Source: Clostridia bacterium (GTDB lineage: Bacteria > Bacillota_A > Clostridia > RUG12999). Taken from it: 45,632 nucleotides of DNA. Each line of letters opens with the position of its first letter. Position 1 is the stretch's first letter. This document shows, piece after piece, positions 3,365 through 39,818 of this stretch. The notes beneath the pieces are model-generated. The model worked only from the letters and a program-made list of their open reading frames with translations, did no database searches and was not told the origin of the DNA. The translations under genes and the position numbers were made by a program. Location of the stretch: NCBI GenBank assembly GCA_017558425.1, contig JAFYVD010000019.1, forward strand, positions 1-45,632, in the 5' to 3' direction.

Positions 3365-5005
3365 ATGGAATTTACGTTGAAGCAAATTTCTGCTCTTGAG
3401 AAAATTAAAAGATGCGACGAGCTGAGTTTTGAAGAGTTCACTACGCAAAAAGCATTGCGCGGAGAAAGATTATCGTGGCAGATTGCGATAAAATCAGAAA
3501 ATAATATAACTGTAAAATTTTCAGCGGAAGCAGACTTTGACGTGAAACTTTATGTCGTTAAAGAGGTGTTTGCTGACAGACCGGTGACCAAAGATTTTCC
3601 GCAGGAAAATTATATTTCCAAAGAACCCTTTTTTGTACCCGATGTGCTGATTCCTCTGGAAAAACAGCAAAACTGTGTATCTGTGGGAAATTATAACAGC
3701 GTGGTTTGGGTGAGGGCAGACATACCGGCCGACTTAAAACCCGGGAAGTATGCGGTTAAAATAAATGTGCAGACGTTGGGATGCGAAGACGGTGTTGATA
3801 CAGTTCTCCTGACCGACATTGATGTTGTGGATGAAAAAATGCCCGAGCAGAGGCTTATTTATACAAGATGGTTTTATGCCGATTGTATAGCAAATGTGCA
3901 CGGCGTTGAGATTTTTTCCGAAGAACATTGGAAACTTATTGAAAAATATATTTCAGCGGCAACCGATGTGGGCATAAATATGATTTTGCTGCCTGTTCAC
4001 ACTCCGCCGCTTGATACCGAGCAGGGCACTGCACGTCCCTGTGTTCAGCTTGTGGATATTGAGAAAAAAGGTGATAAATACCAATTCTCTTTTGAAAAAT
4101 TTACGAGGTTTATAAAAATATGTAAAAACTGCGGCGTTAAATATTATGAAGTTGCCCATATGTTCACTCAATGGGGAGCAAAGCATGCCCCCAACATAAT
4201 GGTGACCGAAAACGGAAAAACGGACTATATGTTTGGCTGGCACACTGATGCAACCTCAGGAGAATATGAAGATTTCCTCAAACAATATATTGCGGCTATC
4301 AGAGAGGCTCTGGAAAAAGAGGGCGTTGCGGAAAATGCATATTTTCATATTTCCGACGAACCCACCGAAGAGAATCTCGGGCAGTATGAAAAAGCAAAAA
4401 ATATAATAAAACCGCTTATCGGGAACAGTAAAACAATGGATGCATTGTCTAATCCGCAGTTCTGCGAAAATGGCTTGGTGGAGTGTCCTGTTGCCATGAT
4501 CAGCCATATGCATAACTTCCTGGAATATAATTTTGAAAACCAGTGGGCTTATTATTGTTGTTTTCCTCAAAATATTTATCCAAACAGCTTTCTTGCAATG
4601 CCGTCGGGCAGGGTAAGGATTTTGGGATTTTTACTGTATAAATATAATGTCAAAGGATTTTTGCATTGGGGATTCAATTTTTACAATTCGGCACTTTCAA
4701 GATATCAGATAAATCCCTATCTCACAACTTCTGCCGAAGGTGCATTCCCTTCGGGAGACGGGTTTATTGTTTACCCCGGAGTGGGCGACGTATACAGTTC
4801 GGTGAGGGGAGAGACAACCTACAGGGCAATTCAGGATATGGACCTTTGCTTTGCACTTGAAAATATTGTCGGCAGAGAAAAGGTTGTGGAAATGATTGAC
4901 CGTGCGGCAGGCGGCAATCTGCGGTTTGACGAATATCCCTGCGATACGGAGTTTTTTGAAAAACTTCGTACAGAGATGATTGAAGCGATAGAAAAGGAGA
5001 AATAA
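3365..5005 (+). CDS. GH123-like (DUF4091) glycoside hydrolase
   Basis: This 546-residue protein has the architecture of the DUF4091/GH123 family: an N-terminal beta-sandwich of about 150 residues, a TIM-barrel catalytic region, and the C-terminal signature in which a GDGFIVYPG motif precedes a regulated-length helical tail. The motif FHISDEPTEE carries the adjacent Asp-Glu that acts in substrate-assisted catalysis by GH123 N-acetylgalactosaminidases. No signal peptide is seen, so it is probably cytoplasmic and acts on imported oligosaccharides. It sits alone between clpX and hflX with its own promoter, and ends two bases before the hflX start. The exact substrate cannot be read from sequence; N-acetylhexosamine is an inference from the family. 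Confidence 0.8.
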   Translation: MEFTLKQISALEKIKRCDELSFEEFTTQKALRGERLSWQIAIKSENNITVKFSAEADFDVKLYVVKEVFADRPVTKDFPQENYISKEPFFVPDVLIPLEKQQNCVSVGNYNSVVWVRADIPADLKPGKYAVKINVQTLGCEDGVDTVLLTDIDVVDEKMPEQRLIYTRWFYADCIANVHGVEIFSEEHWKLIEKYISAATDVGINMILLPVHTPPLDTEQGTARPCVQLVDIEKKGDKYQFSFEKFTRFIKICKNCGVKYYEVAHMFTQWGAKHAPNIMVTENGKTDYMFGWHTDATSGEYEDFLKQYIAAIREALEKEGVAENAYFHISDEPTEENLGQYEKAKNIIKPLIGNSKTMDALSNPQFCENGLVECPVAMISHMHNFLEYNFENQWAYYCCFPQNIYPNSFLAMPSGRVRILGFLLYKYNVKGFLHWGFNFYNSALSRYQINPYLTTSAEGAFPSGDGFIVYPGVGDVYSSVRGETTYRAIQDMDLCFALENIVGREKVVEMIDRAAGGNLRFDEYPCDTEFFEKLRTEMIEAIEKEK

Positions 5006-5007
5006 AA

Positions 5008-6240
5008 TTGGCTGAAGAAATAGCGGTACTTGCCGGGATAGTTTCGGGCAGACTGAATAACGAATTTTCGGACGATGCGACAATGGCAGAACTTGCAGAG
5101 CTTGCAAAAACTGCAGGTGCACAGGTGGTTGCAAGTGTGCTTCAACCCAAAGAAGCCCCCGATGTTGCAACTTATCTTGGTAGCGGTAAGCTTGAAGAGC
5201 TTAAATTTCTGTGCGAAAATAACGATGCAAATCTTGTAATTTTTGACGATGAACTGACAGGGTCGCAGCAGAAAAATATAGAAGATGCACTTGGGGTCAG
5301 AGTAATTGACCGTTCCACGCTTATTCTGGATATTTTCGCATCAAGGGCAATGTCAAAAGAAGGTAAACTTCAGGTTGAGCTTGCTCAGCTGAAATACAGA
5401 CTCCCCAGACTCACGGGGATGGGGCTGTCACTTTCAAGACTTGGCGGCGGTATCGGTACAAGAGGTCCCGGTGAAACCAAGCTTGAATCGGACAAACGGC
5501 ATATCAGAACAAGAATTTCCCATCTGCTTGAAGAGCTTAAGGATGTGGAACGCCGCCGTGGCTATGCCCGTGACCGTCGTAAAAAAGACGGCGTGCTGAC
5601 AGTGTCGCTGGTAGGCTATACCAACGCAGGAAAATCCACTCTTATGAACAGACTCACGGATGCGGGCGTGCTTGTGGAAAACAAGCTTTTTGCAACTCTT
5701 GACACCACATCAAGAGCGCTGAAGCTTCCCGACGACAGAGAAGTTCTTCTGATTGATACGGTAGGGTTTATAAGAAAACTGCCCCACCACCTGATTAACG
5801 CCTTCAAATCCACGCTGGAAGAAGCGGTTTTTGCGGATGTAATTTTAAACGTTATGGATTTTTCAAATCCGGAATATAGAATTCACCGTGAGGTGTCGGA
5901 GGACATTCTGACCTCTCTCGGTTGCAGCGAAATCCCAAAAATCAACGTCTATAACAAATGCGACCTGTCGGAAACCACATACAAGCCTGATGAAGATAAT
6001 ATCTATGTTTCGGCAGTGTCAGGCGAGGGTATGGAGGAACTACTAAAGCTCATCGCAATAAAAATTCCCAACCCGTTTAAAAGAATGAATCTTCTTATCC
6101 CGTATGACAAATCGGGGCTTGCTTCATCTGCGAGGGTGGACGGCAAAATTATTTCGGAAGAATATCTTGCCGAAGGAATAAAAATTACGGCTGATATAGA
6201 CGGGAAAGCGGTGCACAAATATGAACAGTTCGGAATATAA
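5008..6240 (+). CDS. hflX: GTPase HflX
   Basis: HflX is a ribosome-associated GTPase that splits or rescues stalled ribosomes under stress. The N-terminal domain ends in the family signature RGPGETKLE (about 152-160). The G domain follows: G1 GYTNAGKST (203-211), G3 DTVGF (250-254) and G4 NKCD (316-319). Length 410 is typical. Translation starts at a TTG, eight bases after AAGGAG (4994-4999) that lies in the end of the upstream gene. It overlaps the next gene by 20 bases, implying translational coupling. Confidence 0.96.
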   Translation: MAEEIAVLAGIVSGRLNNEFSDDATMAELAELAKTAGAQVVASVLQPKEAPDVATYLGSGKLEELKFLCENNDANLVIFDDELTGSQQKNIEDALGVRVIDRSTLILDIFASRAMSKEGKLQVELAQLKYRLPRLTGMGLSLSRLGGGIGTRGPGETKLESDKRHIRTRISHLLEELKDVERRRGYARDRRKKDGVLTVSLVGYTNAGKSTLMNRLTDAGVLVENKLFATLDTTSRALKLPDDREVLLIDTVGFIRKLPHHLINAFKSTLEEAVFADVILNVMDFSNPEYRIHREVSEDILTSLGCSEIPKINVYNKCDLSETTYKPDEDNIYVSAVSGEGMEELLKLIAIKIPNPFKRMNLLIPYDKSGLASSARVDGKIISEEYLAEGIKITADIDGKAVHKYEQFGI

Positions 6241-6850
6241 AACCATAAGTAAACGTGGCTATGCCGAATATGAGGACAGAAAATCGCGGTTTATTGCCAA
6301 TGTTTTTCCTGTGGAAACGGAAGAAAAGGCGCTGGAATATTTAAATGCGGTCAAGAAAAAGTATTCGGATGCAAGGCACAACGTCTATGCCTATGTTGTC
6401 CGTGAAAATAATGTTCAAAGATACAGCGACGACGGCGAACCATCGGGAACAGCAGGTATGCCTGTCCTTGATGCCATAAGAAAACGCGGTCTCACCGATA
6501 TGCTTGTGGTGGTAACCCGTTATTTCGGCGGAACACTGCTCGGTACGGGCGGACTTGTCCACGCCTACGGCAAAAGTGCCTCTGAAGGGATTGATGACGC
6601 AGTCCCCGTCACAAGACTTTTGTGCGACGTCTATTCGGTGAAAGCCGATTATGGCATTTCGGGAAAAATAGAATACTCACTTCAGGGAAGTGAGTACATA
6701 ATAGAAAATATCGCATATACAGATGCGGTGGAATTCACCGTCTGCGTAAAAGCGGAACAGGGCGAAAAATTCCTGAAAGAAATCACCGAAATTTCGCTCG
6801 GAAGTATAACTCCGACGAAAATGGGTGAAAAGTTTGTGGATGTGAAATAG
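6221..6850 (+). CDS. YigZ/IMPACT family protein
   Basis: The IMPACT N-terminal (UPF0029) domain is clear: YSDARHNVYAYVV, YSDDGEPSGTAGMPVLDAI and VVVTRYFGGTLLGTGGLVHAY. A shorter C-terminal DUF1949-like ferredoxin-fold domain follows. At 209 residues it is full length. Bacterial members are often found near translation genes; the biochemical role is unsettled, and a part in ribosome stress would fit its overlap with hflX. Translation is probably coupled to hflX because the ATG lies inside the hflX end. Confidence 0.93.
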   Translation: MNSSEYKTISKRGYAEYEDRKSRFIANVFPVETEEKALEYLNAVKKKYSDARHNVYAYVVRENNVQRYSDDGEPSGTAGMPVLDAIRKRGLTDMLVVVTRYFGGTLLGTGGLVHAYGKSASEGIDDAVPVTRLLCDVYSVKADYGISGKIEYSLQGSEYIIENIAYTDAVEFTVCVKAEQGEKFLKEITEISLGSITPTKMGEKFVDVK

Positions 6851-10324: not shown

Positions 10325-10353
10325 TTGAAAGCAAAAGAAAATTGTGCTAAAAT
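10325..10353 (+). promoter_or_regulatory. Promoter of the sugar isomerase gene
   Basis: TTGAAA (10325-10330), 17-base spacer, TAAAAT (10348-10353). An in-frame TTG that would extend the gene lies in the -35 box itself, which rules it out as the start codon. Confidence 0.75.
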
Positions 10354-10381
10354 TAAGAAAAAACAACCGGAGGACAAAATT

Positions 10382-11122
10382 ATGATAAAAATAGGTGTTG
10401 CAGATTACGGACTTAATGTTTGGTATGGCGGACTTTACAGCTATGCCGAAAGACTTAATATGTTGAAAGAACTGGGCTATGACGGTATTGAACGACTTGA
10501 AGCAAAAAATCAGGCTGAAGCTGTGGAGTTTATGGCTGATGCCAAATATATGGGTATGGAGTTTACCACTTGCCGCGGAACCAGTGCAATGGAATCGCTC
10601 CGTTGGGCATCGGCACTTGGTATGAAATATGTATGGGCAGACTGGACTTCAAAGGATTTTGACGTGTTCTGCCGTCAGACAAATCATCATATTGGGATAG
10701 CGGCGAAATATGGCGTGAAAGTAGCGGTGCACAATCACCTCGGGGCTGTTGTGGAAACTCAGGAACAGCTTGAAAAATTCCTTGAAAACTGTCCTGAAGC
10801 AGGAATTGTCCTTGATACCGGTCACCTTGCAGGAGCGGGCGGAAATCCGCTTGAAATTGTGGAAAAATATTTTGACAGAATTGTAGCTGTCCACGTGAAA
10901 GACTATGTTTACAAAGATAAATCTGCAGAAGAATGGTATAACAGAATCAGGTTCTGCGAACTTGGTGCAGGTGAAATGGGTGAAATTAACGAAAAAGTTA
11001 TAAAACTGCTTATTGAAAAAGGCTACGACAAATGGATTCACGTTGAGCACGACACTCATCTGCGTGACCCGAAAATCGACCTTGAAATCAGCCGCAAATA
11101 TATCAGAAGCTGCGGGGTGTAA
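10382..11122 (+). CDS. Sugar phosphate isomerase/epimerase family protein (TIM barrel)
   Basis: This is a 246-residue xylose-isomerase-like TIM barrel. Likely metal-site motifs are VAVHNHLG, VLDTGHLAG, VAVHVKDY and HVEHDTHLRDP. The ending VEHDTHLRDP is reminiscent of inosose dehydratase (IolE) and related keto-sugar epimerases, but the substrate cannot be assigned. The start at 10382 is eight bases behind GGAGG (10369-10373). It opens the carbohydrate island; the next genes encode the orphan decarboxylase-pump subunits, which have their own promoter. Confidence 0.85.
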   Translation: MIKIGVADYGLNVWYGGLYSYAERLNMLKELGYDGIERLEAKNQAEAVEFMADAKYMGMEFTTCRGTSAMESLRWASALGMKYVWADWTSKDFDVFCRQTNHHIGIAAKYGVKVAVHNHLGAVVETQEQLEKFLENCPEAGIVLDTGHLAGAGGNPLEIVEKYFDRIVAVHVKDYVYKDKSAEEWYNRIRFCELGAGEMGEINEKVIKLLIEKGYDKWIHVEHDTHLRDPKIDLEISRKYIRSCGV

Positions 11123-11140
11123 AAAGCCTGAAAAGAATTC

Positions 11141-11169
11141 TTGCAAAGCCCTGCATAATATGGTAAAAT
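11141..11169 (+). promoter_or_regulatory. Promoter of the decarboxylase-pump-like genes
   Basis: TTGCAA (11141-11146), 17-base spacer, TAAAAT (11164-11169). A small hairpin AGCAGA/TCTGCT at 11179-11194 lies in the start of the transcript. Confidence 0.65.
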
Positions 11170-11222
11170 ATTACTCTAAGCAGAGTTTTCTGCTCAATGA
11201 AATTTACAGGATGGTGTAAACG

Positions 11223-12311
11223 TTGTTAGAAATTTTTGGGAACGTGTTGGCAATTACGTGGCAACAAATAGTAATGTGGCTTATCGGCGGAGTGCTGATT
11301 TACCTGGCAATTAAAAAGGATATGGAACCCACCCTGCTCCTGCCTATGGGTTTTGGTGCAATTCTGGTGAACCTTCCTTTTTCGGGTGCGGTTGAAACGC
11401 TGGAAACTCTTTTTGCAGCAGGCATTTCGAACGAGCTGTTTCCGCTTATTTTGTTTATCGGAATAGGTGCGATGATAGATTTCGGTCCGCTGCTTTCCAA
11501 TCCGAAACTTATGATTTTCGGTGCTGCGGCTCAGTTCGGTATTTTCTTCACGCTTTGTGTTGCATCAATATTCTTCGATATCAACGATGCGGCGTCTATT
11601 GCAATAATCGGTGCGGCAGACGGCCCAACATCTATTGTGGTTGCTCAGGCTCTCAATTCAAAATATCTCGGGGCAATTATGGTTGCGGCATATTCGTATA
11701 TGGCGCTTGTTCCCATTATTCAGCCGCCGGTTATAAAGTTGCTCACCACCAAAAAAGAGCGTATGATAAGAATGGAATACACTCAGAGAAATGTTTCCAA
11801 AACAACAAGAATTTTGTTCCCCATTGTTATTACAATAATTGCGGGGATTGTTGCACCGGCATCGGTTGCTCTTGTAGGCTTTTTGATGTTCGGTAACTTG
11901 ATTCGTGAATGTGGAGTTTTAAACTCTCTTTCCGAAACAGCACAGAAAGTTCTTGCAAACCTTATCACAATTTTCCTCGGTATTACAATTGCACTTCGTA
12001 TGCAGGCGGCAGAGTTCCTTGCACCACAGACGCTTCTCATCCTCGGACTGGGTCTGGTTGCCTTTATATTTGATACGGCAGGCGGCGTGCTGTTTGCAAA
12101 AATCATAAATATCTTCTCCAAAAAGAAAATTAATCCGATGATTGGCGCGGCAGGCATCTCGGCATTTCCGATGTCGGGCAGAGTTGTTCATAAAATGGGT
12201 CTTGCGGAAGACCCGCAGAACTTCCTGCTTATGCACTCTATCGGGGTAAACGTTTCGGGGCAGATTGCGTCTGTTATAGCAGGCGGTCTTATCCTTAATT
12301 TCTTTATGTAA
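11223..12311 (+). CDS. Na+-translocating decarboxylase beta-subunit family membrane protein (orphan)
   Basis: This 362-residue protein with about nine or more membrane helices matches the beta subunit of oxaloacetate, methylmalonyl-CoA and glutaconyl-CoA decarboxylase Na+ pumps. The key region GAADGPTSI carries Asp133, matching the essential membrane Asp203 of the Klebsiella OadB family. Tyr159 (YSYM) and Arg320 (PMSGRVV) sit at the spacing of the other two known pump residues. The start is TTG at 11223, with a weak AGGA 11 bases upstream; an in-frame stop lies just before it. Downstream is a tiny gamma-like gene. No alpha carboxyltransferase or biotin carrier lies in the window, so this may be a stand-alone Na+-coupled transporter or the pump part of a complex encoded elsewhere. 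Confidence 0.9.
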   Translation: MLEIFGNVLAITWQQIVMWLIGGVLIYLAIKKDMEPTLLLPMGFGAILVNLPFSGAVETLETLFAAGISNELFPLILFIGIGAMIDFGPLLSNPKLMIFGAAAQFGIFFTLCVASIFFDINDAASIAIIGAADGPTSIVVAQALNSKYLGAIMVAAYSYMALVPIIQPPVIKLLTTKKERMIRMEYTQRNVSKTTRILFPIVITIIAGIVAPASVALVGFLMFGNLIRECGVLNSLSETAQKVLANLITIFLGITIALRMQAAEFLAPQTLLILGLGLVAFIFDTAGGVLFAKIINIFSKKKINPMIGAAGISAFPMSGRVVHKMGLAEDPQNFLLMHSIGVNVSGQIASVIAGGLILNFFM

Positions 12312-12326
12312 TCGGGGGAGAATGCT

Positions 12327-12461
12327 ATGAATATAAATCCTATGAACTTTGTAAATAATCTTTATTATATGGGAGTAGGTATGCTCACCATTTTTATAGT
12401 GATAGGTGTAATTATTGCAGTGACAATGATTTTAAACAAAGCAACCGAGCCGAAAGAATAA
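12327..12461 (+). CDS. Small OadG/MmdD-like gamma subunit, 44 residues
   Basis: A very short gene with a strong ribosome site GGGGGAG (12314-12320) six bases before its ATG, 15 bases after the beta-subunit stop. It starts MNINPMNFVNNLYYMGVGML, has a single membrane helix (about residues 15-37), and ends in a short charged tail NKATEPKE. The N-terminal layout MGVGMLTIFIVIGVII is that of the decarboxylase pump gamma chain. Known gamma chains are about 80 residues or more and add a Pro/Ala linker and metal-binding tail; this one lacks all of that. A transcription terminator follows directly. Confidence 0.72.
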   Translation: MNINPMNFVNNLYYMGVGMLTIFIVIGVIIAVTMILNKATEPKE

Positions 12462-12478
12462 AAACATAATATAAGGCA

Positions 12479-12513
12479 GGCTGTAAAAACTTTCGGTTTT
12501 TACAGCCTTTGTT
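12479..12513 (+). terminator. Terminator after the beta/gamma pair
   Basis: Perfect 12-base arms GGCTGTAAAAAC (12479-12490) and GTTTTTACAGCC (12496-12507), five-base loop TTTCG, and then TTTGTTTG. The stem core is shared with the terminators at 3233 and 6867. Confidence 0.88.
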
Positions 12514-12544
12514 TGAAATTGTCCGATTTTTTGATGTTTTTGTC

Positions 12545-12573
12545 TTGCGATTGCGGTTGTATTATGGTATTAT
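12545..12573 (+). promoter_or_regulatory. Promoter of the GH29-like pair
   Basis: TTGCGA (12545-12550), 17-base spacer, TATTAT (12568-12573), 27 bases before the ATG at 12600. Confidence 0.65.
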
Positions 12574-12599
12574 GAAGAAAAGTGCAAAGGAGAATTTAT

Positions 12600-13535
12600 A
12601 TGAAAAACGGAATAAAATGGATGCAGGACGGACCTTTTGGAATAATGGTGCATTATCTTTCGTGCATCAGCGACAGAGAAGGTAACAGAATTGATTTTAA
12701 CGAAATGGCGGACCGGTTTGACATCCCGGCATTTATGGATAATCTCGAAAAAATGGGCGCTAAGTGGCTCATTTTCCCATTCGGTCAGAACACAGGCTAT
12801 TACTGGTCGGAAAACCCGGTGGTTGAAAAACAGATTGCCGGCAGATGCTCAAAACGCGACCTTATTGTAGAAATCGCAACTGCCTGTAAGGAAAGAGATA
12901 TTAAATTCATTGCATATCTGCCTTGCGAAATGGACGATTGCGAAGAAAATATGAGAAATGCTTTCAAATGGGACGAAAGTTCTGATAAACATACATTTAT
13001 GGAACTCTGGATGGAGGCTATTACATATTGGGCGAAAAAACTTGGCGACAAGCTTGACGCCTGGTGGTTTGACGGTTCTTACGATTCCAAGGAAAAAGCC
13101 TTCAAACGTACTCATGACTGGGACAACCAGCGTTATGATGTTGAAAAATGGTTTGCGGCAGCTCGGGCAGGTAACCCCGATTGTAAGGTGGCAATCTGCC
13201 GTGGTGCGAACGACCGCACTTATGTATTCTTTGAACAGGATTATTATGCAGGCGAAAGCAACGATTTGTCCTTTATTCCCACGCTTGCCACAAGAGACGG
13301 TATCCAGCAGCACAGCCTTGTGTGGATAGACTGCTTCTGGGCGGTTGTTGATGACCTTGGCGGCGGCAGCCCTAACGCACCCAGATTCACTGATGACGAG
13401 CTTTTCGATTGGGTGAAAGCGTATAACGATGTTGGTGCAGGTGCGACTCTCAATATCGGTATTTATAACGACAGCAGCCTTATTGAAGAATCGGTTGAAC
13501 AGATTTGCAGAATCAGAGAGAGACTTGGTAAATAA
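12600..13535 (+). CDS. GH29-like (alpha-L-fucosidase superfamily) protein, copy 1
   Basis: This 311-residue protein resembles the catalytic TIM barrel of GH29 fucosidases. Motifs include GPFGIMVHYL near the N-terminus, GAKWLIFPFG, and DAWWFDGSY, where Asp158 aligns with the GH29 nucleophile position. It is much shorter than a full fucosidase and has no C-terminal beta-sandwich. The KHHDGF segment of true GH29 enzymes is replaced by FGQNTGYYWS, so the substrate pocket must differ. The ATG at 12600 is seven bases after AAAGGAG; a longer GTG start would lie at the edge of that site and is rejected. No signal peptide. Its tandem copy follows one base after the stop. Confidence 0.82.
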   Translation: MKNGIKWMQDGPFGIMVHYLSCISDREGNRIDFNEMADRFDIPAFMDNLEKMGAKWLIFPFGQNTGYYWSENPVVEKQIAGRCSKRDLIVEIATACKERDIKFIAYLPCEMDDCEENMRNAFKWDESSDKHTFMELWMEAITYWAKKLGDKLDAWWFDGSYDSKEKAFKRTHDWDNQRYDVEKWFAAARAGNPDCKVAICRGANDRTYVFFEQDYYAGESNDLSFIPTLATRDGIQQHSLVWIDCFWAVVDDLGGGSPNAPRFTDDELFDWVKAYNDVGAGATLNIGIYNDSSLIEESVEQICRIRERLGK

Positions 13536-13536
13536 T

Positions 13537-14478
13537 ATGAGAAATGGTATAGAATGGATGCAAAAAGGCCCGTACGGAATTATGGTGCACTTTTCGTCAT
13601 CTGTTGTTGATAAAAAGGGAAATAAAAAAGAGTTTAACCGTATGGCGGATGAATTTGATGTTCCGGCGTTTATGGAAACACTTGAAAAAGTGGGTGCCAA
13701 ATGGCTCATTTTCACCATAACTCACGGTACAATGATGTTCTGGTCGGAAAATCCGGTTATTGAAAAGATTATACCGGGCAGATGCTCTAATCGTGATTTG
13801 ATGGTGGAAATCGCCGATGCCTGCAAAGAAAAGGGTATAAAGTTTATGCTTTATATACCCACAGAAACTGACGGCGGAGAAAAAAGTGAAATGAGAAAGG
13901 CTTGCAGGTGGAGTGAAAGCGCTGATAAAAAAGCCTTTATGGAAATATGGATGGAGCTTATAAGCTATTATGCCGGAAAGCTTGGTGACAGGCTGAGCGG
14001 TTGGTGGTTTGACTGTGCATATGAGTCGGCTGAAAAAAGCTTTAAAAACACTCACGACTGGAATAATCAGCGTTTTGACAGAAAAAGATGGTTTGAGGCG
14101 GCTCGTGCAGGCAATCCCGATTGTAAGGTGGCACTGTGCAGAGGCAGAAATGACCGCACATACGTGTTCTTCGAACAGGACTATTTTGCAGGCGAGTGTG
14201 ATGATCTTTCCTATGTTCCTCAGTTTGCAACTCAGGACGGGATTCAGCATCACAGTCTGGTGTGGATTGACAGTTATTGGACGGTTGGCGACGCCGCGGG
14301 CGGTGTTGGAATTCCCGATGCACCCAGGTTCACCGATGATGAGCTTTACAGCTGGATTAAAGCCAACAATGATGTTGGCGGCGGAGTTACACTGAACATT
14401 GGAATTTACAATGACGGCACTTTTATTGACGATACAATAGACCAGCTTGTTCGTATCAAAGAGCGGTTGGGAAATTAG
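13537..14478 (+). CDS. GH29-like (alpha-L-fucosidase superfamily) protein, copy 2
   Basis: A tandem paralogue of the preceding gene, alike in well over half its residues by eye and 313 residues long. The shared blocks include GIMVH, SENPV, NRDLMVEIADACKE and the long motif around NDRTYVFFEQDY. The putative nucleophile block reads GWWFDCAY (Asp159, Cys160), where copy 1 has a Gly after the Asp. The KHHDGF segment is again absent. The ATG is one base after the previous stop, so translation is coupled; upstream starts in frame lie inside copy 1. The two may be a heteromer or have split substrates. The last four bases overlap the convergent AraC gene. Confidence 0.82.
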   Translation: MRNGIEWMQKGPYGIMVHFSSSVVDKKGNKKEFNRMADEFDVPAFMETLEKVGAKWLIFTITHGTMMFWSENPVIEKIIPGRCSNRDLMVEIADACKEKGIKFMLYIPTETDGGEKSEMRKACRWSESADKKAFMEIWMELISYYAGKLGDRLSGWWFDCAYESAEKSFKNTHDWNNQRFDRKRWFEAARAGNPDCKVALCRGRNDRTYVFFEQDYFAGECDDLSYVPQFATQDGIQHHSLVWIDSYWTVGDAAGGVGIPDAPRFTDDELYSWIKANNDVGGGVTLNIGIYNDGTFIDDTIDQLVRIKERLGN

Positions 14479-15248
14479 TTGCGATATGCAGAAGGGTTAG
14501 CGTCGGTTTTCTCCTTGAATTTTCTTGAAAAATAGTTCACTGAGGAAAAACCGCAAAGCTCTGAAATTTCATTGACAGATAAAGGGCTATGTTCTAGTAA
14601 GGATATGGCCTTTTCGATTCTTGCACAAAGCAGGTCATCTATGGGACTGGAACCGAAAAAACGGTTATAGAGTGTGCAAAAATGGCTTACGGAATAGTTT
14701 GTAATTCCGGCGAGATGCTCTAAAGTGATTTTTTTGTCAAGGTTACTCAGCATATAAGTTCGTGCAACATTTAAGGCGGAAAAAGCAGGGTGAGTGTTGT
14801 TTCGGGAATGTTCATACTGTCGGCCGAGGGAAACAAGCATTTCCGAAATAATTGAAGAAATTCTGTATTCATAGCCGGGTTGTTTGAAAAGTTTTTCGGA
14901 TAAAATTTTGTCGATATAAGGAGCAATAATGCTGTGATTGTCAATTTTAAAAGCAGTGTTAAGCGGAAGAGAAAACTCCTCAAGTATGTACTTTACGGCA
15001 TCGCCTTTAAAGAAAATAACATCGTTTGAAATGCCGTTTCCGTTACCGCCATGTTCACAAATTGCGTATGGTGTATGAATAATATAGTGAAACTCATCGC
15101 AGGGCAGAAGCTTGCCGTCCTTTTTGTAAATAAAGGATGATCTGAAAAAAGATATAATGTAGTTGTCCTGATAATTTCTACGGATATAATATGTTCCTGC
15201 GGGGTCGAAAATTCGGTTTTTGCAAATTGAGCAAGTTATACTGTGCAT
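14475..15248 (-). CDS. AraC family transcriptional regulator
   Basis: The 257-residue protein has an N-terminal cupin-like sensing domain and a C-terminal AraC double helix-turn-helix: KKITLEHLAGITNYSVSHFC, then LSVNEISELCGFSSVNYFSR and the closing KFKEKTDANPSAYRN. The N-terminus carries CSIC, perhaps a metal or redox site. The ATG at 15248 is eight bases after GAGG; an upstream GTG at 15257 lies in that ribosome site. It faces the EutH gene, and it converges on the GH29-like genes. It probably activates the EutH/beta-helix operon in response to a sugar. Confidence 0.93.
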   Translation of the reverse strand: MHSITCSICKNRIFDPAGTYYIRRNYQDNYIISFFRSSFIYKKDGKLLPCDEFHYIIHTPYAICEHGGNGNGISNDVIFFKGDAVKYILEEFSLPLNTAFKIDNHSIIAPYIDKILSEKLFKQPGYEYRISSIISEMLVSLGRQYEHSRNNTHPAFSALNVARTYMLSNLDKKITLEHLAGITNYSVSHFCTLYNRFFGSSPIDDLLCARIEKAISLLEHSPLSVNEISELCGFSSVNYFSRKFKEKTDANPSAYRN

Positions 15249-15266
15249 AAAATTCACCTCGGGGGA

Positions 15267-15295
15267 ATTATATCACAAATCGTAAGATAGTGCAA
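15267..15295 (-). promoter_or_regulatory. Promoter of the AraC-type regulator
   Basis: On the minus strand TTGCAC (15290-15295), 17-base spacer, TATAAT (15267-15272). The -10 sits in TGTGATATAATT, which is mirrored with one change at the opposing promoter. Confidence 0.75.
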
Positions 15296-15315
15296 CTGTT
15301 CAATAAAATTGTGGG

Positions 15316-15344
15316 TGGAAAAAACGGATAATCTGTGATATGAT
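15316..15344 (+). promoter_or_regulatory. Weak, probably activator-dependent promoter of the EutH operon
   Basis: A good -10 TATGAT (15339-15344) has only a poor -35, TGGAAA (15316-15321), at 17 bases. The -10 context TGTGATATGATT repeats the opposite promoter's. A weak -35 next to a divergent AraC gene suits activation by that protein. Confidence 0.5.
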
Positions 15345-15371
15345 TTTAAAAAAGAAAAAGAGAGGAAACCT

Positions 15372-16451
15372 ATGAAACTTGAATATATTTTTGCCTTTTT
15401 TGCCGTTATAGGTGCGCTTGACAAAATTTTCGGCAACAAGTTCAAGCTTGGCGACGAGTTTGAAAAGGGGATAATGACCATCGGCGTGCTGGTATTTTCC
15501 ATGGCGGGAACTATGGTGCTTGCGCCTGTGATGGCGCAGGGGCTTTCCTTTGTTTTTGAGCCCATTGCAAAATTTTTACATATCGATGTGTCCATGATTT
15601 CAATTTTTATTGCCAACGATTCGGGTGGCGCGGCTATGGCGTACGAAATGTCGGCAGACGAGCAGATAAGAGCATACAACGGACTTATCGTAGGGTCTAT
15701 GTTTGGTGCAACCATTTGTCCCATTGTGCCGCTTTCGTTGAAAATAGTGGACAAGAAATATCACGAAGATGTGCTGACAGGTCTGCTTTGCGGCATTGCC
15801 ACCATTCCGGTGGGATGCATTGTTGCAGGTATTATTATGCAGATTCCGTTTGGCAAGCTTATAATAAATACAATTCCGATGATTGTTTTATCTGCGGTGA
15901 TTTGTTTAGGGCTTGCAAAAGCACCCGATCTGACCAGAAAAATATTCGGCGGTTTTGGTGCACTTCTGATGATAATTATAGTTGCCGGACTTGCGGTGGG
16001 AATTGTGGACCAACTCGCAGGGATAAAGCTTATCCCGGGAATTGCGCCGCTTGCGGATACATTTGTGATAATATGCAATATCGGCATAATTCTTTCGGGT
16101 GTATTTCCGCTTCTTGCCATTGTTTCAAGAGTTTGCAAAAAGCTTTTTGTAAAGCTTGGTAATGCACTTGAAATCAACGAAACCTCGGTTCTTGGGTTTG
16201 TCACAACTCTGGCAAACTCGGTGCCAATGCTTTCCATGATGGAAAATATGAACAAAAAAGGCAGAATTTTAAATATGGCGTTTGCCGTGTCGGCAGCGTT
16301 TGTACTTGGCGACCATCTGGCGTTCACCATTGCATTTGACGGAAAATATGTGATGCCTATGATGGTGGGGAAACTGATAAGCGGATTTGCGGCATTTGCA
16401 CTGGCAAATCTTGTATATAAAAAGATGAAAACTGAGGAGGAACAGTTATGA
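15372..16451 (+). CDS. eutH: EutH-family permease
   Basis: This 359-residue membrane protein has about ten hydrophobic helices and resembles EutH, the ethanolamine permease. Family-like blocks are IFIANDSGGAAMAYEM (helix break with Asn-Asp), GSMFGATICPIVPLSL and AAFVLGDHLAFTIAF. No ethanolamine ammonia-lyase, microcompartment or other eut gene is in the window. It overlaps the beta-helix gene by four bases (ATGA), so the two are translated together, and a divergent AraC gene likely controls both. The real cargo may be a sugar, amino sugar or an amine freed from a glycan. Family assignment is firm; cargo is open. Confidence 0.88.
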   Translation: MKLEYIFAFFAVIGALDKIFGNKFKLGDEFEKGIMTIGVLVFSMAGTMVLAPVMAQGLSFVFEPIAKFLHIDVSMISIFIANDSGGAAMAYEMSADEQIRAYNGLIVGSMFGATICPIVPLSLKIVDKKYHEDVLTGLLCGIATIPVGCIVAGIIMQIPFGKLIINTIPMIVLSAVICLGLAKAPDLTRKIFGGFGALLMIIIVAGLAVGIVDQLAGIKLIPGIAPLADTFVIICNIGIILSGVFPLLAIVSRVCKKLFVKLGNALEINETSVLGFVTTLANSVPMLSMMENMNKKGRILNMAFAVSAAFVLGDHLAFTIAFDGKYVMPMMVGKLISGFAAFALANLVYKKMKTEEEQL

Positions 16452-18517
16452 TAAACAGCAGTAATCTTACTACTATCTATGTTTCGCAGAAATTCGGGGA
16501 CAATAACTGCACCGGTTTCAGAAAAGAAGAAAACGGTGATATGCAGGGCCCTGTGAAAACCATAGAATTTGCTCTTGAGCAGATTGGCAAACTGCGTAAC
16601 GCAGGTGTTGGTCAGCCTATAACAATAGCCATTCTTGACGATGTTTATACTCTTGATAAACCTATTGTTATTGATAACACAGTCAGCCTTGTAACCATTA
16701 AAGGGATGAACAACACCATTATAAACGGCGGTTTCAAGATTGAAGGGTTCAAAGATGATGTGTTCAACGGCGCGAAATGTTTCAGTGCGGAAGTTCCGCA
16801 GGTGAAGGAAGGAATGTGGTTTACCGACCTTTATGTTGACGGCATCAGAGCAGATTTTACACACATTCCCAAAACGGGAGTTTTTGAGCCGATTGATGTT
16901 GAGGACAATAATAAAGAGCTTGGAACCCATTGCAAATGGTTTATCGCAAAGCCTGAAGATGCAAAGCTTTTGGCATCTCTTAAAAACTTCAGCGATTGTA
17001 TCATAAGCTATAATCACTACTGGATTGACGAACATTCTCCTCTTGAAAGCGTTGACCCTGAAACGGGCAAAGTTATAATGAAATATAAATCACGTTTCAG
17101 CATATCCAACCTGTTTGAAAGGTCGGCACTTAAATATAAAATTGAAAATGTTGCTGAAGCTTTCGAAAATGCCAACGAATGGTATCTTGACAGACAGACT
17201 GCCAAGGTTTACTATATCCCGAGAAACTCCGCACAGACCGCAGAAAATATTGATGTTTATGTGCCAAACCTTCAGAAACTTTTCATAATCAAAGGTGAAA
17301 AAGAAAATAAGGTTGACGGCGTTACGTTTAAAAACCTCACCTTTGCCAACACACGAGGCGATTATGTGAGCGTTTGGGACAAAAAAGCCATTGCCGAGGT
17401 TGACGGCACTCTGGCATACCTGTCCGACGAAGAAGATGTATTTGCGTCCGATTCGCAGTCGGTTGAAATTGCTCCCGGTGCTATTGAATTTACATATGCT
17501 CACGGCGGCGGTGTTGAATATTGCAACCTCAGGAGCCTGGGTCTCCACGGCATCACAATCAATGAAGGTTGCGACAAACAGAGAATTTACGGTAACAAAT
17601 TCTTTAATCTCGGTGCAGGTGGTATTAAAGTTGGGGGCGGACTTTTCGGTTGTGATAAAGAAAATGAAACTTTTGATATCACAATTTCTCAGAATGAAAT
17701 TAAAAACTGCGGCAGAAGATATTTGGCGGCTTGCGGTGTGCTTTTAAAACATGCTTATAAAATCACGGTTTCACACAACGACATTTCCGACCTGTTCTAT
17801 ACAGGTATTTCGGTTGGTTGGGTGTGGGGATATAAAGACAATATTTCAAGAGATAATATTATCGAGAAAAACCACATTTATAACATCGGTCAGGGTGTGC
17901 TGTCCGACATGGGCGGAATTTATGTGCTCGGCCGTCAGCCCGGAACAATTCTCCGCGGAAACCTCATCCACGATGTTACAAGCTTTGATTATGGCGGTCA
18001 CGGTATTTATACCGACGAAGGTACCTGCTATATCCTGATTGAAAACAACATCTGTTACGGCGGCAATTCCACCGGATTCAACCAGCATTACGGCAGAATG
18101 AACACCATCAGAAACAACATTTTTGCCAAAGCGGGTGAAGAGCCTGTCCGTTCTTCCATGGCGGAACTTCATTCCAGCATCATTCTGGACAGAAATATCA
18201 TAGTTTCTGACGGAACAGCGTCTTACAGAGCGGGTTACGGCAGACAGAACACAGGATATTTCCACAAAATGTGCGGTACAAACAACATTCATTTCAATAC
18301 AAAAGGTGAAGTTAAAATTTTCGACATCGGCACAAAAAGTTTCTCGCTCGAAGAAGTGCAGAATGTGTATGGACTTGAGGACGGCTCGATAATTGCTGAC
18401 CCCAAATTCAAAGATTACGAAAATAACGATTTCACACTTTCGGAAGATTCTCCCGCACTTGCAATGGGATTTGAGCCTATTGATATGTCGGATGTCGGTG
18501 TAACAATCAAAATATAA
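16448..18517 (+). CDS. Right-handed parallel beta-helix protein, GH141-like
   Basis: This 689-residue protein starts like carbohydrate-active beta-helix proteins: a first strand with TTIYVSQKFGDNNC, then GPVKTIEFALEQI and a VTIKGMNNTIINGG turn. The insert MWFTDLYVDGIRADFTHIPK is typical of GH141-related enzymes. Then come many helix coils with Asn ladders, such as ITISQNEIKNCG, ITVSHNDISDLFYTGISVG and ILIENNICYGGNSTGF. No signal peptide is evident, odd for a polysaccharide enzyme and pointing to a small imported substrate. GH141 includes fucosidase and xylanase activities, so a fucose-linked role would suit its neighbours. It is translationally coupled to the EutH gene. Confidence 0.8.
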   Translation: MINSSNLTTIYVSQKFGDNNCTGFRKEENGDMQGPVKTIEFALEQIGKLRNAGVGQPITIAILDDVYTLDKPIVIDNTVSLVTIKGMNNTIINGGFKIEGFKDDVFNGAKCFSAEVPQVKEGMWFTDLYVDGIRADFTHIPKTGVFEPIDVEDNNKELGTHCKWFIAKPEDAKLLASLKNFSDCIISYNHYWIDEHSPLESVDPETGKVIMKYKSRFSISNLFERSALKYKIENVAEAFENANEWYLDRQTAKVYYIPRNSAQTAENIDVYVPNLQKLFIIKGEKENKVDGVTFKNLTFANTRGDYVSVWDKKAIAEVDGTLAYLSDEEDVFASDSQSVEIAPGAIEFTYAHGGGVEYCNLRSLGLHGITINEGCDKQRIYGNKFFNLGAGGIKVGGGLFGCDKENETFDITISQNEIKNCGRRYLAACGVLLKHAYKITVSHNDISDLFYTGISVGWVWGYKDNISRDNIIEKNHIYNIGQGVLSDMGGIYVLGRQPGTILRGNLIHDVTSFDYGGHGIYTDEGTCYILIENNICYGGNSTGFNQHYGRMNTIRNNIFAKAGEEPVRSSMAELHSSIILDRNIIVSDGTASYRAGYGRQNTGYFHKMCGTNNIHFNTKGEVKIFDIGTKSFSLEEVQNVYGLEDGSIIADPKFKDYENNDFTLSEDSPALAMGFEPIDMSDVGVTIKI

Positions 18518-18522
18518 TTGAA

Positions 18523-18546
18523 AAGCGGAGTCTAACGACTCCGCTT
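18523..18546. terminator. Hairpin terminator shared by convergent genes
   Basis: Arms AAGCGGAGTC (18523-18532) and GACTCCGCTT (18537-18546) with a four-base loop. Much of the stem lies inside the last codons and stop of the minus-strand gene. The minus side has a TTTTC tail and the plus side a broken T-run. Confidence 0.7.
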
Positions 18547-24325: not shown

Positions 24326-25834
24326 CTAATTGAATAAATCTTCAAACAATTTAATCGGCACATAAACTTTGCCTTTCACATAGTAAGGCGTTGCGATTTT
24401 CTCGTCTGCACCGTCGTAGTAGGTGAAATTCTTTGCGGCACCATCTACATACACGGTGGAAACGGGAATAATATTCACCGAAGACGGAATTTTAGCTGCG
24501 TCGGAATCAACTTCGTAAGCTAATTCGTGGGGTTCGAGGTCTGTGGTAAGATAGAAAATACCGCCACTCATGTAATATTTTATGTTCAGCGCATCGCAGA
24601 TTTCGGTAAGTTCCACCATAAGGGACTTGCTGTACTCGTTCGCAATCATCGCACTGATGGGGTAGAGAGAACCGTCAAAAGAAATGGTCATATCAACCAT
24701 TCTGGTACTGAGTCGGTCTGTGTTGGAAATGCTGCCCGAAGCATATTTGCCATAATCCTCGCGGAAGGTGTATCCTGCTGTGGAAACAGGCATAGAACCG
24801 GAGAAATTGTTGGTTTTAAGAGTCAAAGTGGGAACGCCGTCTTTTTTGTCAAGTGAAACTACCGAGTAACTGCTGTCATACTTGCTGTCGCAAATCAATC
24901 CGCCCTGTTTCAAAACAAAGAGAAGATAGTGCACACCATCTTTTTCAGCAAGGTAAATGTGAGCGTTGTCGTCATCAAGAACGGTTTTTACATTGAAATT
25001 CTTTTCCACATATTCTATCGCAGCTCCGTAAGGGAGAACTTTTTCGAGAAGACTCGTTTTAGCATAGGTTTTAGCCTCGTTCATCGCGAAAAATGCCATA
25101 CCGCCCGGGGCGCTGATAATCTGTCCCACAGCTTCACCGCCGAAATAAATGGGATTAATTTTATAATTGTTGTTTTTGAAATCGTCGGACATAAAAATGC
25201 TTAATGTGCTGTCAAAAGGATTAAGCTGGTCGAACGAGCAGGAAAGCATATTGTCGTTAAGCTCAAACTTTAGTTTTTTGGCGGGATAATTGTCGAAAAA
25301 GTTGTTTTCGTGGAGGAAGGTGTTAAGGAAAAGTTCGCGGGAATCTTCGTGCCATACGGCATTGCAAAGGTATTTGGAATAACCGTACGGAGCGTTGTGT
25401 TCGTCTGCGGTGTAAGCACCCATTTCCTCGACGCAAATGGCAGTTTTGCCACGGATATTATAACCTGTTATTTCAATCCCGTTGAAAAACACGCGAATGT
25501 CGGTTTCGATAACAGTGCCAACCACACCGCCGTTCACACCGCGGCTGACAACAGCATTGGCGTTGCCGGTGGTGAAATTACTGTCGAGGGTGAGCGTGCG
25601 AGTTTCATCATCATAAGCACTAGTGAAACCATAATGTACGCCTGTGTCGTTGTTGCACAACTCTTCCACAATAACAACGGTTTGTCCGCGAATGTTATAA
25701 GAGTTTATGGGCTTGTTGTTGATATAGGTCAGAATATCGGTTTCAATAATGTCGCCAATCGGGTCGCCGGGAGCGGCATACACGCCGAGAGCAACAAGCA
25801 TAAGTAAAACAAAAACCAAAATAAATTTTTTCAT
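24326..25834 (-). CDS. Exported protein with copper-amine-oxidase-like stalk repeats
   Basis: This 502-residue protein starts with a clear signal peptide (MKKFILVFVLLMLVALGVYA, cleavage after about 20). Two tandem copies of one domain follow, about residues 27-87 and 105-170. Each holds ETDI, a YNIRG turn and VVIVEEL or AICVEEM, and ends in RTLTL or RELFL, the layout of the copper amine oxidase N-terminal-like stalk in clostridia. A long unassigned middle is followed by another stalk-like end YYVKGKVYVPIKLFEDLF. No enzyme motif is recognised; a cell-surface or wall-bound role is inferred. Confidence 0.72.
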   Translation of the reverse strand: MKKFILVFVLLMLVALGVYAAPGDPIGDIIETDILTYINNKPINSYNIRGQTVVIVEELCNNDTGVHYGFTSAYDDETRTLTLDSNFTTGNANAVVSRGVNGGVVGTVIETDIRVFFNGIEITGYNIRGKTAICVEEMGAYTADEHNAPYGYSKYLCNAVWHEDSRELFLNTFLHENNFFDNYPAKKLKFELNDNMLSCSFDQLNPFDSTLSIFMSDDFKNNNYKINPIYFGGEAVGQIISAPGGMAFFAMNEAKTYAKTSLLEKVLPYGAAIEYVEKNFNVKTVLDDDNAHIYLAEKDGVHYLLFVLKQGGLICDSKYDSSYSVVSLDKKDGVPTLTLKTNNFSGSMPVSTAGYTFREDYGKYASGSISNTDRLSTRMVDMTISFDGSLYPISAMIANEYSKSLMVELTEICDALNIKYYMSGGIFYLTTDLEPHELAYEVDSDAAKIPSSVNIIPVSTVYVDGAAKNFTYYDGADEKIATPYYVKGKVYVPIKLFEDLFN

Positions 25835-30204: not shown

Positions 30205-31887
30205 TTATTCCATATATCCGTTTTCACGGAGCCAGTTAATGGTGTTTGTGAACCCTTCACGAATGTCAATAGAGTCTTCAAAATACCTGATATTGGGCAA
30301 AGCACTGCTAATTGTCACCGAACAGTCCATATATTTCCCGTGGTAAATCCCGTCATAATCCAGCGCCATAATATCGTCGTACAATGCACGGTGCAGCTGC
30401 TTGATCCGGTCGGGAGGAATATAGCAATTTTTTTTCTTATCGGTAAAGTTTATCTCCGCATTGGTATAGTACCTTTCGGCATCATTCATTCCGATTATAA
30501 TACCAACATTTTTCTCTTTAAATTCTTCATACTTATAAAAACCGCGGATTTTTTCAAAAAAGCTCTTCGGAACGTTGTATTCACGAGAAATACGCCTTCC
30601 GTCTTTCATAATATACTCAATTTCAATATATTCACCCGAAAAATGGTGGTCTACATTGCTATAATATCTGTCGTCCGTCACAATTGCACGATGGAGTTCT
30701 GTAATTTCCGCCACCAGCTCGGGGGTTTGATAAAATGTATCGTCATCGTCGAAATAGTCCTCATAATAAGAAAAGAATTTCGCCTGCTCAACCTTTTCGG
30801 GAGAGGGGACACGTTTTTCAAATCCAAAGAAACCGCCGTAAACTATGTAAGACATACAAGCCAGGAAAATAACGGCGAAAACTGCAAGTCCTTTGTAGGA
30901 TTTCCACACTTTCATAGACTTTTTCAACAGCATTTCCGTGCCGAAATAGGCAACAACCGTTAAAATTACGGTGGTGAGGATATTCCAGTCGGCACCGCAG
31001 GACAAAAGCGTCACAAGGAATGTGACAAGATATTTGAAAATGGGATTGAGCACCTTAAAACCTGCAATATCTTCGGCATTTTCAAGGTTTCTATTTTTAT
31101 AAAGAGCCCAGCCAAACAGGAAGAAAAGGACTGCACAAACCGCCGAAATGATAAAGCCTACAACATCCACCATGGGCATACCAGTCGAAAACCATGCATT
31201 AACATAGTCGAACCACATAATCTGTGCAGGGAAATTGCCTTCCGCAAGGCTGTCAAACAGTTGGTTGGAAGAGGTGAAGCCTAACACATATTCTTCCAGC
31301 ACTCCTCCGAAAAGACCAACAACGCTCAGCAGCAGAATGTGCACCAAAAGGTTTATAACTATCATTGCAAAGCTGTTGCCCGTCAGCGATGCCGCAAAGG
31401 AAGCTGCAGAAAACATCAGGAACAGACCCAGCAGAATGCAACCTGTCCACACAAGAGCTGCGCGAAAAGCCGTCAGGTCAAATGTGCCAAGAGAAGTAAC
31501 CGCTATAATCACGCCGTTTGCGATTACGGGCAGAAATATCAGCGTAAAGCCTGCCAATACCGATGAAAAATAAATGGCGTTTCGGCTGACGGGAAGGCTG
31601 TGGGTGAACACACTTGTTTTTTTGGAATGCATAAACCTGAAAACTAAAAGTCCCGCTATGGTGGGCACAAACCAGGTCGTAATCAAGGGGAAGGTGAGAT
31701 AGTTATAGCCTAAAATACTAGGGTATGAGGCGTTTTCGCCGAATCGGGTGTAAAAAGTTGCGTCGCTCAGCCAGGGCAGAGTGGTGGTTAAAAAGAGGAT
31801 TACAAAATATAGAACCGAGCCCCACAAACAACGTTTGATTGTCGATTTATAAATACCTTTATTAAACAATGATGTTTTTAAAGTCAT
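30205..31887 (-). CDS. ABC transporter permease, YtrC/D-like with extracytoplasmic C-terminal domain
   Basis: This 560-residue membrane protein has about eight hydrophobic helices. One is near residues 25-45, a group spans 60-210, and others lie at 245-270 and 290-360. A soluble C-terminal half of about 200 residues follows, rich in Tyr and Asp, as in ABC-2 type permeases linked to YtrA regulators. It overlaps the ATPase gene by 26 bases. In related operons such transporters answer cell-wall-active antibiotics or envelope stress; that role here is inferred. Confidence 0.85.
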   Translation of the reverse strand: MTLKTSLFNKGIYKSTIKRCLWGSVLYFVILFLTTTLPWLSDATFYTRFGENASYPSILGYNYLTFPLITTWFVPTIAGLLVFRFMHSKKTSVFTHSLPVSRNAIYFSSVLAGFTLIFLPVIANGVIIAVTSLGTFDLTAFRAALVWTGCILLGLFLMFSAASFAASLTGNSFAMIVINLLVHILLLSVVGLFGGVLEEYVLGFTSSNQLFDSLAEGNFPAQIMWFDYVNAWFSTGMPMVDVVGFIISAVCAVLFFLFGWALYKNRNLENAEDIAGFKVLNPIFKYLVTFLVTLLSCGADWNILTTVILTVVAYFGTEMLLKKSMKVWKSYKGLAVFAVIFLACMSYIVYGGFFGFEKRVPSPEKVEQAKFFSYYEDYFDDDDTFYQTPELVAEITELHRAIVTDDRYYSNVDHHFSGEYIEIEYIMKDGRRISREYNVPKSFFEKIRGFYKYEEFKEKNVGIIIGMNDAERYYTNAEINFTDKKKNCYIPPDRIKQLHRALYDDIMALDYDGIYHGKYMDCSVTISSALPNIRYFEDSIDIREGFTNTINWLRENGYME

Positions 31888-38675: not shown

Positions 38676-39818
38676 ATGAAAAAAGCGATAATTAATGCAC
38701 AGATTGTGCTTGAAACAGGTATCATATGGGATGCAACTCTTATAACCGAAGATGATGAAATCCTCGCTTACGGCAAAGATATCGAAATCCCGCCTACTGC
38801 AGAAATTATTGATGCCGAGGGCGCTTATGTGGGTCCCGGTCTTGTGGACATTCACGTTCACGGCGGAAACGGCGCTCACACTGCCGAAGACCCGATTACG
38901 GCGTCCGAGCATTTCCTCAAACACGGCGAAACCACCATTTTAGCTACCCCGTCATATAACTTTACTTTCGAAAGATTTATAAACGGTATCCGCACGGTGA
39001 GAGAAAATCTGCCAAAACTCCGCAACGTTCGCGGTATGTATATGGAAGGGCCGTATACCAACTCAAAATACGGTTCAAAAACCGCACAGAACGACTGGGT
39101 GGACAAGCTGACTCCCGAATGGTACAAACCTCTCGTTGACGAAGCGGGCGACCTTGCAAAAGTATGGACGGTTGCTCCCGAAAGAGAGGGAATCACAGAT
39201 TTTCTCGCCTATGCGAGAAAGGTTAATCCCAAGGTAAAAATTGCGATAGGTCACAGCCATGCAACCCCCGATATGGTGCGTGCGATGGGCAGCAAATTCC
39301 GTCCCACAATTCTCACACACTATGGTTGTGCAAATCCGGTGCTTCCGCCCCTTTCAGGCGGTACAAGAGGCAGCGGTGTGGACGAATACAGCCTGCAGAA
39401 CCCCGATGTTTATTGCGAAATGATAAGCGATTCCTGCGCAATTCACGTTCAGGCGCCCAATCAGAGACTTGTTGTTCACGCAAAAGGTGTTGAAAAGGTT
39501 GTGCTTATCACAGACTGCACAGCTCACAACAACCCCAATCCCGAACAATTTGCTCACATTGATGACCTTAACTTTAACCAGACCGGCGGTCTGTCGGGCA
39601 GCAAAATGACACTTGACAAGGCTTGCCGCAACATTATGACTCACACAAACTGCGGTATTGCCCAGGCATTTATTATGGCGTCGGGCAACCCGGCAAAAGC
39701 TATCGGAATGTACGACGAAATCGGTTCAATCGAGCCGGGCAAAAAAGCCGATATTATTTTCGTTGATGACAGATTCAACGTGAAAAAGGTTATGCTGAGA
39801 GGCGAAATCGTATATTAA
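38676..39818 (+). CDS. NagA-like N-acetylglucosamine-6-phosphate deacetylase family amidohydrolase, copy 1
   Basis: This 380-residue amidohydrolase would remove acetate from an N-acetyl amino-sugar phosphate. Visible metal and catalytic motifs are HxH at His60/His62 (DIHVHGG), Glu124 (YMEGPYTNS), His193/His195 (GHSHAT), His215 (LTHYG), and His257 and Asp280 (LITDC). The THLFNAM of standard NagA reads THYGCAN, so it is a divergent subfamily. It follows fucosidase and GH20-like genes, consistent with use of released N-acetyl sugars. A close paralogue lies 262 bases downstream. Confidence 0.85.
   Translation: MKKAIINAQIVLETGIIWDATLITEDDEILAYGKDIEIPPTAEIIDAEGAYVGPGLVDIHVHGGNGAHTAEDPITASEHFLKHGETTILATPSYNFTFERFINGIRTVRENLPKLRNVRGMYMEGPYTNSKYGSKTAQNDWVDKLTPEWYKPLVDEAGDLAKVWTVAPEREGITDFLAYARKVNPKVKIAIGHSHATPDMVRAMGSKFRPTILTHYGCANPVLPPLSGGTRGSGVDEYSLQNPDVYCEMISDSCAIHVQAPNQRLVVHAKGVEKVVLITDCTAHNNPNPEQFAHIDDLNFNQTGGLSGSKMTLDKACRNIMTHTNCGIAQAFIMASGNPAKAIGMYDEIGSIEPGKKADIIFVDDRFNVKKVMLRGEIVY

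Follow-up and report, generated by a model that had tools for sequence, protein, structure and literature searches.

Positions 1 to 45,632 of contig JAFYVD010000019.1 from a Clostridia bacterium (assembly GCA_017558425.1), here called the window, contain a block of eight genes at 10382-18517. They encode a xylose-isomerase-like protein (xylI), a Na+-translocating decarboxylase beta subunit (oadB) followed by a small peptide, two GH29-like proteins (gh29a and gh29b), an AraC-type regulator, an EutH-family permease and a parallel beta-helix protein that is GH141-like. The initial annotation had interpreted the block as a single uptake-and-cleavage system for a fucose-like sugar, in which the two membrane proteins had been taken over to import a glycan product or to power that import. 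Pfam scans and translations confirmed all the gene families named for it, with small corrections to bounds and to the labels 'gamma' and 'isomerase'. The remark that a usual sugar transporter is missing also holds for the block. Our own interpretation, which we hold with somewhat more than even confidence, is that the block consists of independent units. Its key unit would span 15372-18517 and comprise eutH and the GH141-like gene, probably under the control of the divergently transcribed araC gene, while OadB and its peptide would form a separately transcribed and widely conserved stand-alone pump unit without a specific tie to sugars.

The block seems to be divided into about five transcription units. 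The spacing of the genes agrees with the promoter-like and terminator-like matches. Inside units the genes are tightly packed: 15 nucleotides (nt) separate oadB from the peptide gene, 1 nt separates gh29a from gh29b, and eutH overlaps the beta-helix gene by 4 nt. The gaps between the other plus-strand units are 100 and 138 nt and that between araC and eutH is 114 nt, so that the short gaps described earlier are found inside the units and not between them. Transcription of araC runs away from eutH and towards gh29b. In a consensus scan, promoter-like matches ended 26-53 bases upstream of the starts of xylI, oadB, gh29a and eutH. Terminator-like stems were found on the plus strand between the oadB unit and the GH29-like pair (12478-12508; 14-bp stem, folding energy -19.4 kcal/mol) and, by pattern scan, at the end of the eutH unit (18523-18546). 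All promoters and terminators are pattern-level matches only and single sites carry little weight, the promoter scan having returned 36 sites against a mean of 18.7 after shuffling and the terminator scan 20 against 8.2. The bounds given initially, 10325 and 18546, could be traced to such features. At the first there is a TTG that falls within a promoter-like match (10325-10353), the likely start codon being the ATG at 10382, and the second is the end of the stem at 18523-18546.

The EutH permease and its sugar-linked relatives

The eutH gene (15372-16451, plus strand) encodes a full-length member of PF04346 (358.9 bits with a cut-off of 25, profile positions 6-350 of 351). It remained under the cut-offs of all four NCBIfam EutH models (342.6 against 482, 319 against 387, 205 against 574 and 182 against 575), and in a phylogenetic tree it grouped apart from the EutHs of eut operons. 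The structural model (predicted local distance difference test score, pLDDT, of 92) resembles elevator transporters, and may share its fold with the CNT and DASS families.

We fetched 26 EutH loci, 20 of the 39 matches and the six full ones of nine from a second search. In five of them eutH adjoins an alanine dehydrogenase gene and in six a PHP gene; six have EutB on the same contig, four are sugar-linked, and five (L093, L094, L096, L100 and L102) were left unclassified. Among the latter, L100 appeared eut-like by eye, with an EutB match on another contig, and L102 has a PHP gene on the other strand. The four closest readable relatives (56-62% identity), two of which are sister loci, all adjoin sugar genes. 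In L267 the relative (56%) follows nahK and nagB, in L264 a NagA-like gene is separated from it by one gene, and GH43-like genes adjoin it in two sister loci. The gene that separates eutH from the NagA-like gene in L264 encodes a protein of 324 residues. Its match to glucosamine-6-phosphate deaminase had an E-value of only 0.22 and was not used. EutB was found in none of the nine genomes of the related order that had an EutH match, the search having reached 95 genomes of this order.

The window permease is like the EutHs of eut operons in its full-length family match and in the DxGG and GDHL(A/G)F motifs, but differs from them in the NCBIfam scores, in its separate grouping, in the sugar-gene neighbours of its relatives and in the lack of EutB in the genomes that carry them. 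The arrangement of L267 recalls salvage of N-acetylglucosamine and N-acetylgalactosamine (GalNAc) by NahK. The window differs from such a system: neither NahK nor NagB was among the proteins scanned, and the only related genes are two NagA-like ones at a distance of 20 kb. Of the earlier proposal, the part according to which EutH was taken over for sugar finds partial support in these results, whereas its place in a single shared system does not. Most probably EutH works as a secondary importer of the elevator type, whose substrate would be a small glycan product, be it a sugar, an amino sugar or a small glycoside, in place of ethanolamine. We infer both the substrate and the direction of transport, the former from context only. 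The sugar-linked clade is a variant within an already known family.

Two other groups of relatives deserve mention. Five EutHs of 46-50% identity (L088, L089, L090, L091 and L092) are encoded beside an alanine dehydrogenase gene, in L092 with an open reading frame (ORF) between. They fall into one group in the tree, which suggests an alanine-type permease group within PF04346. In six further loci (L095, L097, L098, L099, L268 and L269) the relatives, of 41-46% identity, lie 26-72 nt 3' of a gene for a PHP-domain (HisJ-like) phosphatase on the same strand.

The existence of the alanine-linked group bears on the alternative that the window EutH is an amino-acid or ethanolamine-type permease, for alanine, ethanolamine or another small amine, which merely stands beside the GH141-like gene. 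PF04346 was named after ethanolamine use, the two motifs are common to both kinds of protein, and a neighbouring group is associated with alanine dehydrogenase. We nevertheless regard a role in amine transport as unlikely, since no other eut gene and no alanine dehydrogenase was present among the window proteins scanned and since both the absence of EutB from the nine genomes and the sugar genes beside the four closest readable relatives speak against it.

The second gene of the unit (16448-18517, plus strand) encodes a right-handed parallel beta-helix protein (PF13229) without a signal peptide by eye. Its sequence matched the GH141 enzyme BT_1002 (5mqp) with an E-value of 7e-25 over 309 residues and 9rx2 with an E-value of 4e-25. 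It differs from BT_1002 in the lack of a signal peptide and in its score with the GH141 insertion-domain model PF21231, which was under the cut-off (19.8 bits, cut-off 27). BT_1002 is reported to release a 2-O-methyl-xylose-fucose disaccharide from rhamnogalacturonan II (PMC10154630). The regulator gene araC (14475-15257, minus strand; PF00165 and PF12833) probably controls the eutH-GH141 unit, from which it is transcribed divergently.

If the importer reading is correct, AraC with its inducer bound would switch on eutH and the GH141-like gene. EutH would then import a small sugar compound by elevator movement, presumably coupled to an ion, and the GH141-like enzyme, which is predicted to be cytoplasmic, would cleave the imported compound inside the cell.

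The stand-alone OadB and its 44-residue partner

oadB (11223-12311, plus strand, TTG start) encodes an OadB paralogue with a full-length match to its family (PF03977, 505 bits; TIGR01109, 420 bits with a cut-off of 190.6), which matched StOadB (PDB 6iva) with an E-value of 2e-98. It is followed by a gene for a peptide of 44 residues (12327-12461, plus strand), which had been labelled the gamma subunit. This peptide gave no match to a Pfam family, appears by eye to be one hydrophobic helix, and is too short for a fair comparison with the gamma subunits of oxaloacetate decarboxylase. In known complexes (PMC7145394) the helix of the small subunit is followed by a linker and by a tail through which the beta subunit is joined to the transferase. 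The 44-residue peptide has space for little beyond the helix.

This combination is by no means peculiar to the window. In an even draw of 291 Clostridia genomes, OAD_beta relatives were present in 215 and matches of 60% identity or more in at least 94 (counted by hand), the identity in the twelve best genomes being 82-88%. We fetched 20 oadB loci (67-88% identity), some of them on short contigs. The peptide gene lies 3' of oadB in 18 of these, and only the two loci of lowest identity (L156 and L157) gave no match to it, so that it can be described as a conserved partner of oadB. In none of the 20 loci could a carboxyltransferase, a biotin carrier, a full gamma subunit or an OadA-like gene be detected near oadB, and none of the window proteins scanned against Pfam was a biotin enzyme.

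The same genomes do encode such proteins elsewhere: PYC_OADA domains were found in 19 of the 20, Carboxyl_trans domains likewise in 19 and biotin-carrier domains in all. The Carboxyl_trans count does not amount to 19 pumps, because the matches in five genomes (G015, G181, G170, G115 and G016) seem to be parts of acetyl-CoA carboxylase only. In 13 of the 20 genomes, one and the same contig carried genes for a full-length transferase, a carrier and an OadA-like protein. In three such operons the gene order was MmdA-like, gamma, carrier, OadB and OadA, the gamma gene being named by eye. Six residues (D203, Y229, N373, S382, R389 and N412) are identical in the window OadB, in all 20 stand-alone relatives and in nine canonical OadBs, a sequence having been obtained from nine of the ten canonical loci fetched. 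We take these to be essential pump residues, concerned with Na+ and carboxybiotin. The window protein resembles OadB, GcdB and MmdB in its full-length family match and in these six residues, and differs from them in its one-helix partner and in the lack of an adjoining transferase, carrier or full gamma gene.

The OadB pair probably decarboxylates carboxybiotin and thereby pumps Na+, the carboxybiotin being presented by a carrier and a transferase whose genes lie elsewhere. It may feed the Na+ motive force of the whole cell and would not be a dedicated part of sugar uptake. The earlier view that the pair had been recruited for glycan import found no support, since neither EutH nor GH29-like genes were present at any of the 20 oadB loci and the presumed pump residues are all retained. 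The OadB pair is unlikely to be a borrowed importer. It could also be imagined that the stand-alone pair has left the decarboxylase complex altogether and is now an independent transporter. A partner without room for the transferase-linking tail would be in keeping with this, as would the presence of a canonical decarboxylase gene set in most of the genomes. OAD_beta is also assigned to the CPA/AT transporter clan (PMC8396727). The conservation of the six residues in 20 of 20 relatives speaks against such a transporter, and we consider a departure of this kind rather improbable, preferring a stand-alone pump unit.

Separation of the modules in related genomes

The two GH29-like genes (gh29a, 12600-13535, and gh29b, 13537-14478, both plus strand) encode short proteins which are 64-65% identical to each other. 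Both reached the GH29 family model PF01120 (32.8 and 37.1 bits, cut-off 25.2). We collected 69 relatives, mostly of 300-340 residues. In an alignment of 67 sequences, the two window proteins and 65 of the relatives (P0027, P0057, P0074 and P0077 were excluded as partial), D158 and E219 were invariant, and these residues may have catalytic roles. The model of copy a (pLDDT 95) had as its top fold match in the PDB the GH29-like fucosidase FucWf4 (9pnj/9pnk; template modelling score 0.80), which was also the best PDB match by sequence (E-value 4e-10). FucWf4 is reported to act on sulfated fucooligosaccharides, from which it releases terminal alpha-1,3/4 fucose (PMC11189522). The window protein differs from FucWf4 in comprising 311 residues and a barrel only, in lacking a signal peptide by eye and in being part of a tandem, at an identity of 19-20%. 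Copy b likewise has no signal peptide by eye. The pair would be a separate fucosidase-like unit, probably cytoplasmic and with a predicted activity, that may serve the same diet as the eutH unit. The remaining gene, xylI (10382-11122, plus strand), probably forms its own transcription unit. It encodes a xylose-isomerase-like TIM-barrel protein (PF01261, 67 bits, scored on the longer ORF from 10325), whose best NCBIfam score, 77 bits for the myo-inosose dehydratase IolE, was far under the cut-off of 290.

To see which genes stay together, the window genes were searched by BLAST against 49 GH29-like, 26 EutH, 20 OadB and seven beta-helix loci, the last with eight beta-helix genes among them; several of the loci are on short contigs. 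For the GH29-like genes the closest genome found was at about 50%. OAD_beta and EutH were absent from all 49 GH29-like loci, and EutH was also absent from the seven loci with a full-length relative (35-53% identity) of the beta-helix protein. Apart from oadB and the peptide gene, no two of OAD, EutH, GH29-like, beta-helix and xylI genes recurred together as close relatives, and the block as one unit was rejected. There were a few weak exceptions. At the oadB loci we found a beta-helix match of 23.6% (L153), an xylI match of 25.8% (L154) and an amidohydrolase (L150); L025 has a 24% xylI match, and in L243 a 50% OadB lies about 4.5 kb from a beta-helix relative. In L038, from Hydrogenedentota, a 22% beta-helix relative (3989-5230) directly precedes a GH29-like gene (5291-6262). 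AraC-type matches occurred beside several modules (L001, L006, L011, L046, L099, L101, L102, L238, L244, L264-L266 and L269, and the oadB loci L141, L143 and L144), but they were not counted because the family is too common.

In the relatives examined the modules part from one another, which contradicts the single-system interpretation and is the outcome that the initial annotation itself had named as speaking against it. We consider it highly improbable that all eight genes serve a single system of glycan uptake and cleavage, with the OadB pair energising or performing import: all genes do lie within 8 kb, with a base composition like that of the flanks (42.4% G+C, against 43.3% in the window), a relative of EutH and one of gh29b may share a contig, and L038 has its beta-helix and GH29-like neighbours, but none of the loci examined combined OAD, EutH, GH29-like and close beta-helix genes, terminator-like and promoter-like matches separate the units, and OadB retains its presumed carboxybiotin and Na+ residues.

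The block looks as if it were set in an ordinary Clostridia chromosome between housekeeping genes. To the left, scans of the window proteins gave tig-clpP-clpX-(GH123)-hflX-UPF0029-holA-comEC, and to the right cysteine desulfurase, carD, ispD, ispF and proS. The GH123 gene, of the N-acetyl-galactosaminidase type (3365-5005), sits between clpX and hflX. Horizontal acquisition was considered on grounds of composition and dismissed, as G+C content and third-position G+C are like those of the flanks. No Rfam family at gathering score and no tRNA was found in the window. Further to the right are the tandem NagA-like deacetylase genes (38676-39818 and 40081-41223), which score under the nagA cut-off, followed by a gene for a 346-residue protein with a marginal match to GlmS (E-value 0.015). 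Three large ORFs (24326-25834, 502 residues; 30205-31887, 560 residues; 36294-38402, 702 residues) gave no Pfam match at an E-value of 0.001, and the last of these comes after a full-length GH29 gene.

Implications for the EutH and OadB families

Family membership is a common basis for the annotation of sugar importers. The groups described above invite a broader proposal, which we put forward tentatively and at somewhat less than even confidence. The EutH family would not be one of ethanolamine permeases but would broadly comprise elevator-type importers with several catabolic specialisations (ethanolamine, alanine, PHP-linked and sugar). The group of the window permease would be an unrecognised kind of importer through which Clostridia take up free amino sugars or small glycosides, belonging neither to the phosphotransferase systems nor to the ATP-binding cassette transporters, and would feed NahK, NagA and NagB or cytoplasmic GH141 and GH29 enzymes. 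Links of EutH to alanine dehydrogenase, to NagB or N-acetylglucosamine, to elevator transport and to sugar or GalNAc transport, as well as an orphan OadB, were not mentioned in the titles and abstract openings of the literature matches listed, a statement which extends to these texts only.

The stand-alone OadB pair raises the testable question of why many Clostridia retain an additional pump subunit, driven by carboxybiotin, whose partner is no more than a helix. If the EutH family does include importers of sugars or amino acids, some genomes may have been wrongly credited with ethanolamine use, and a route of sugar uptake that they do possess may have been overlooked.
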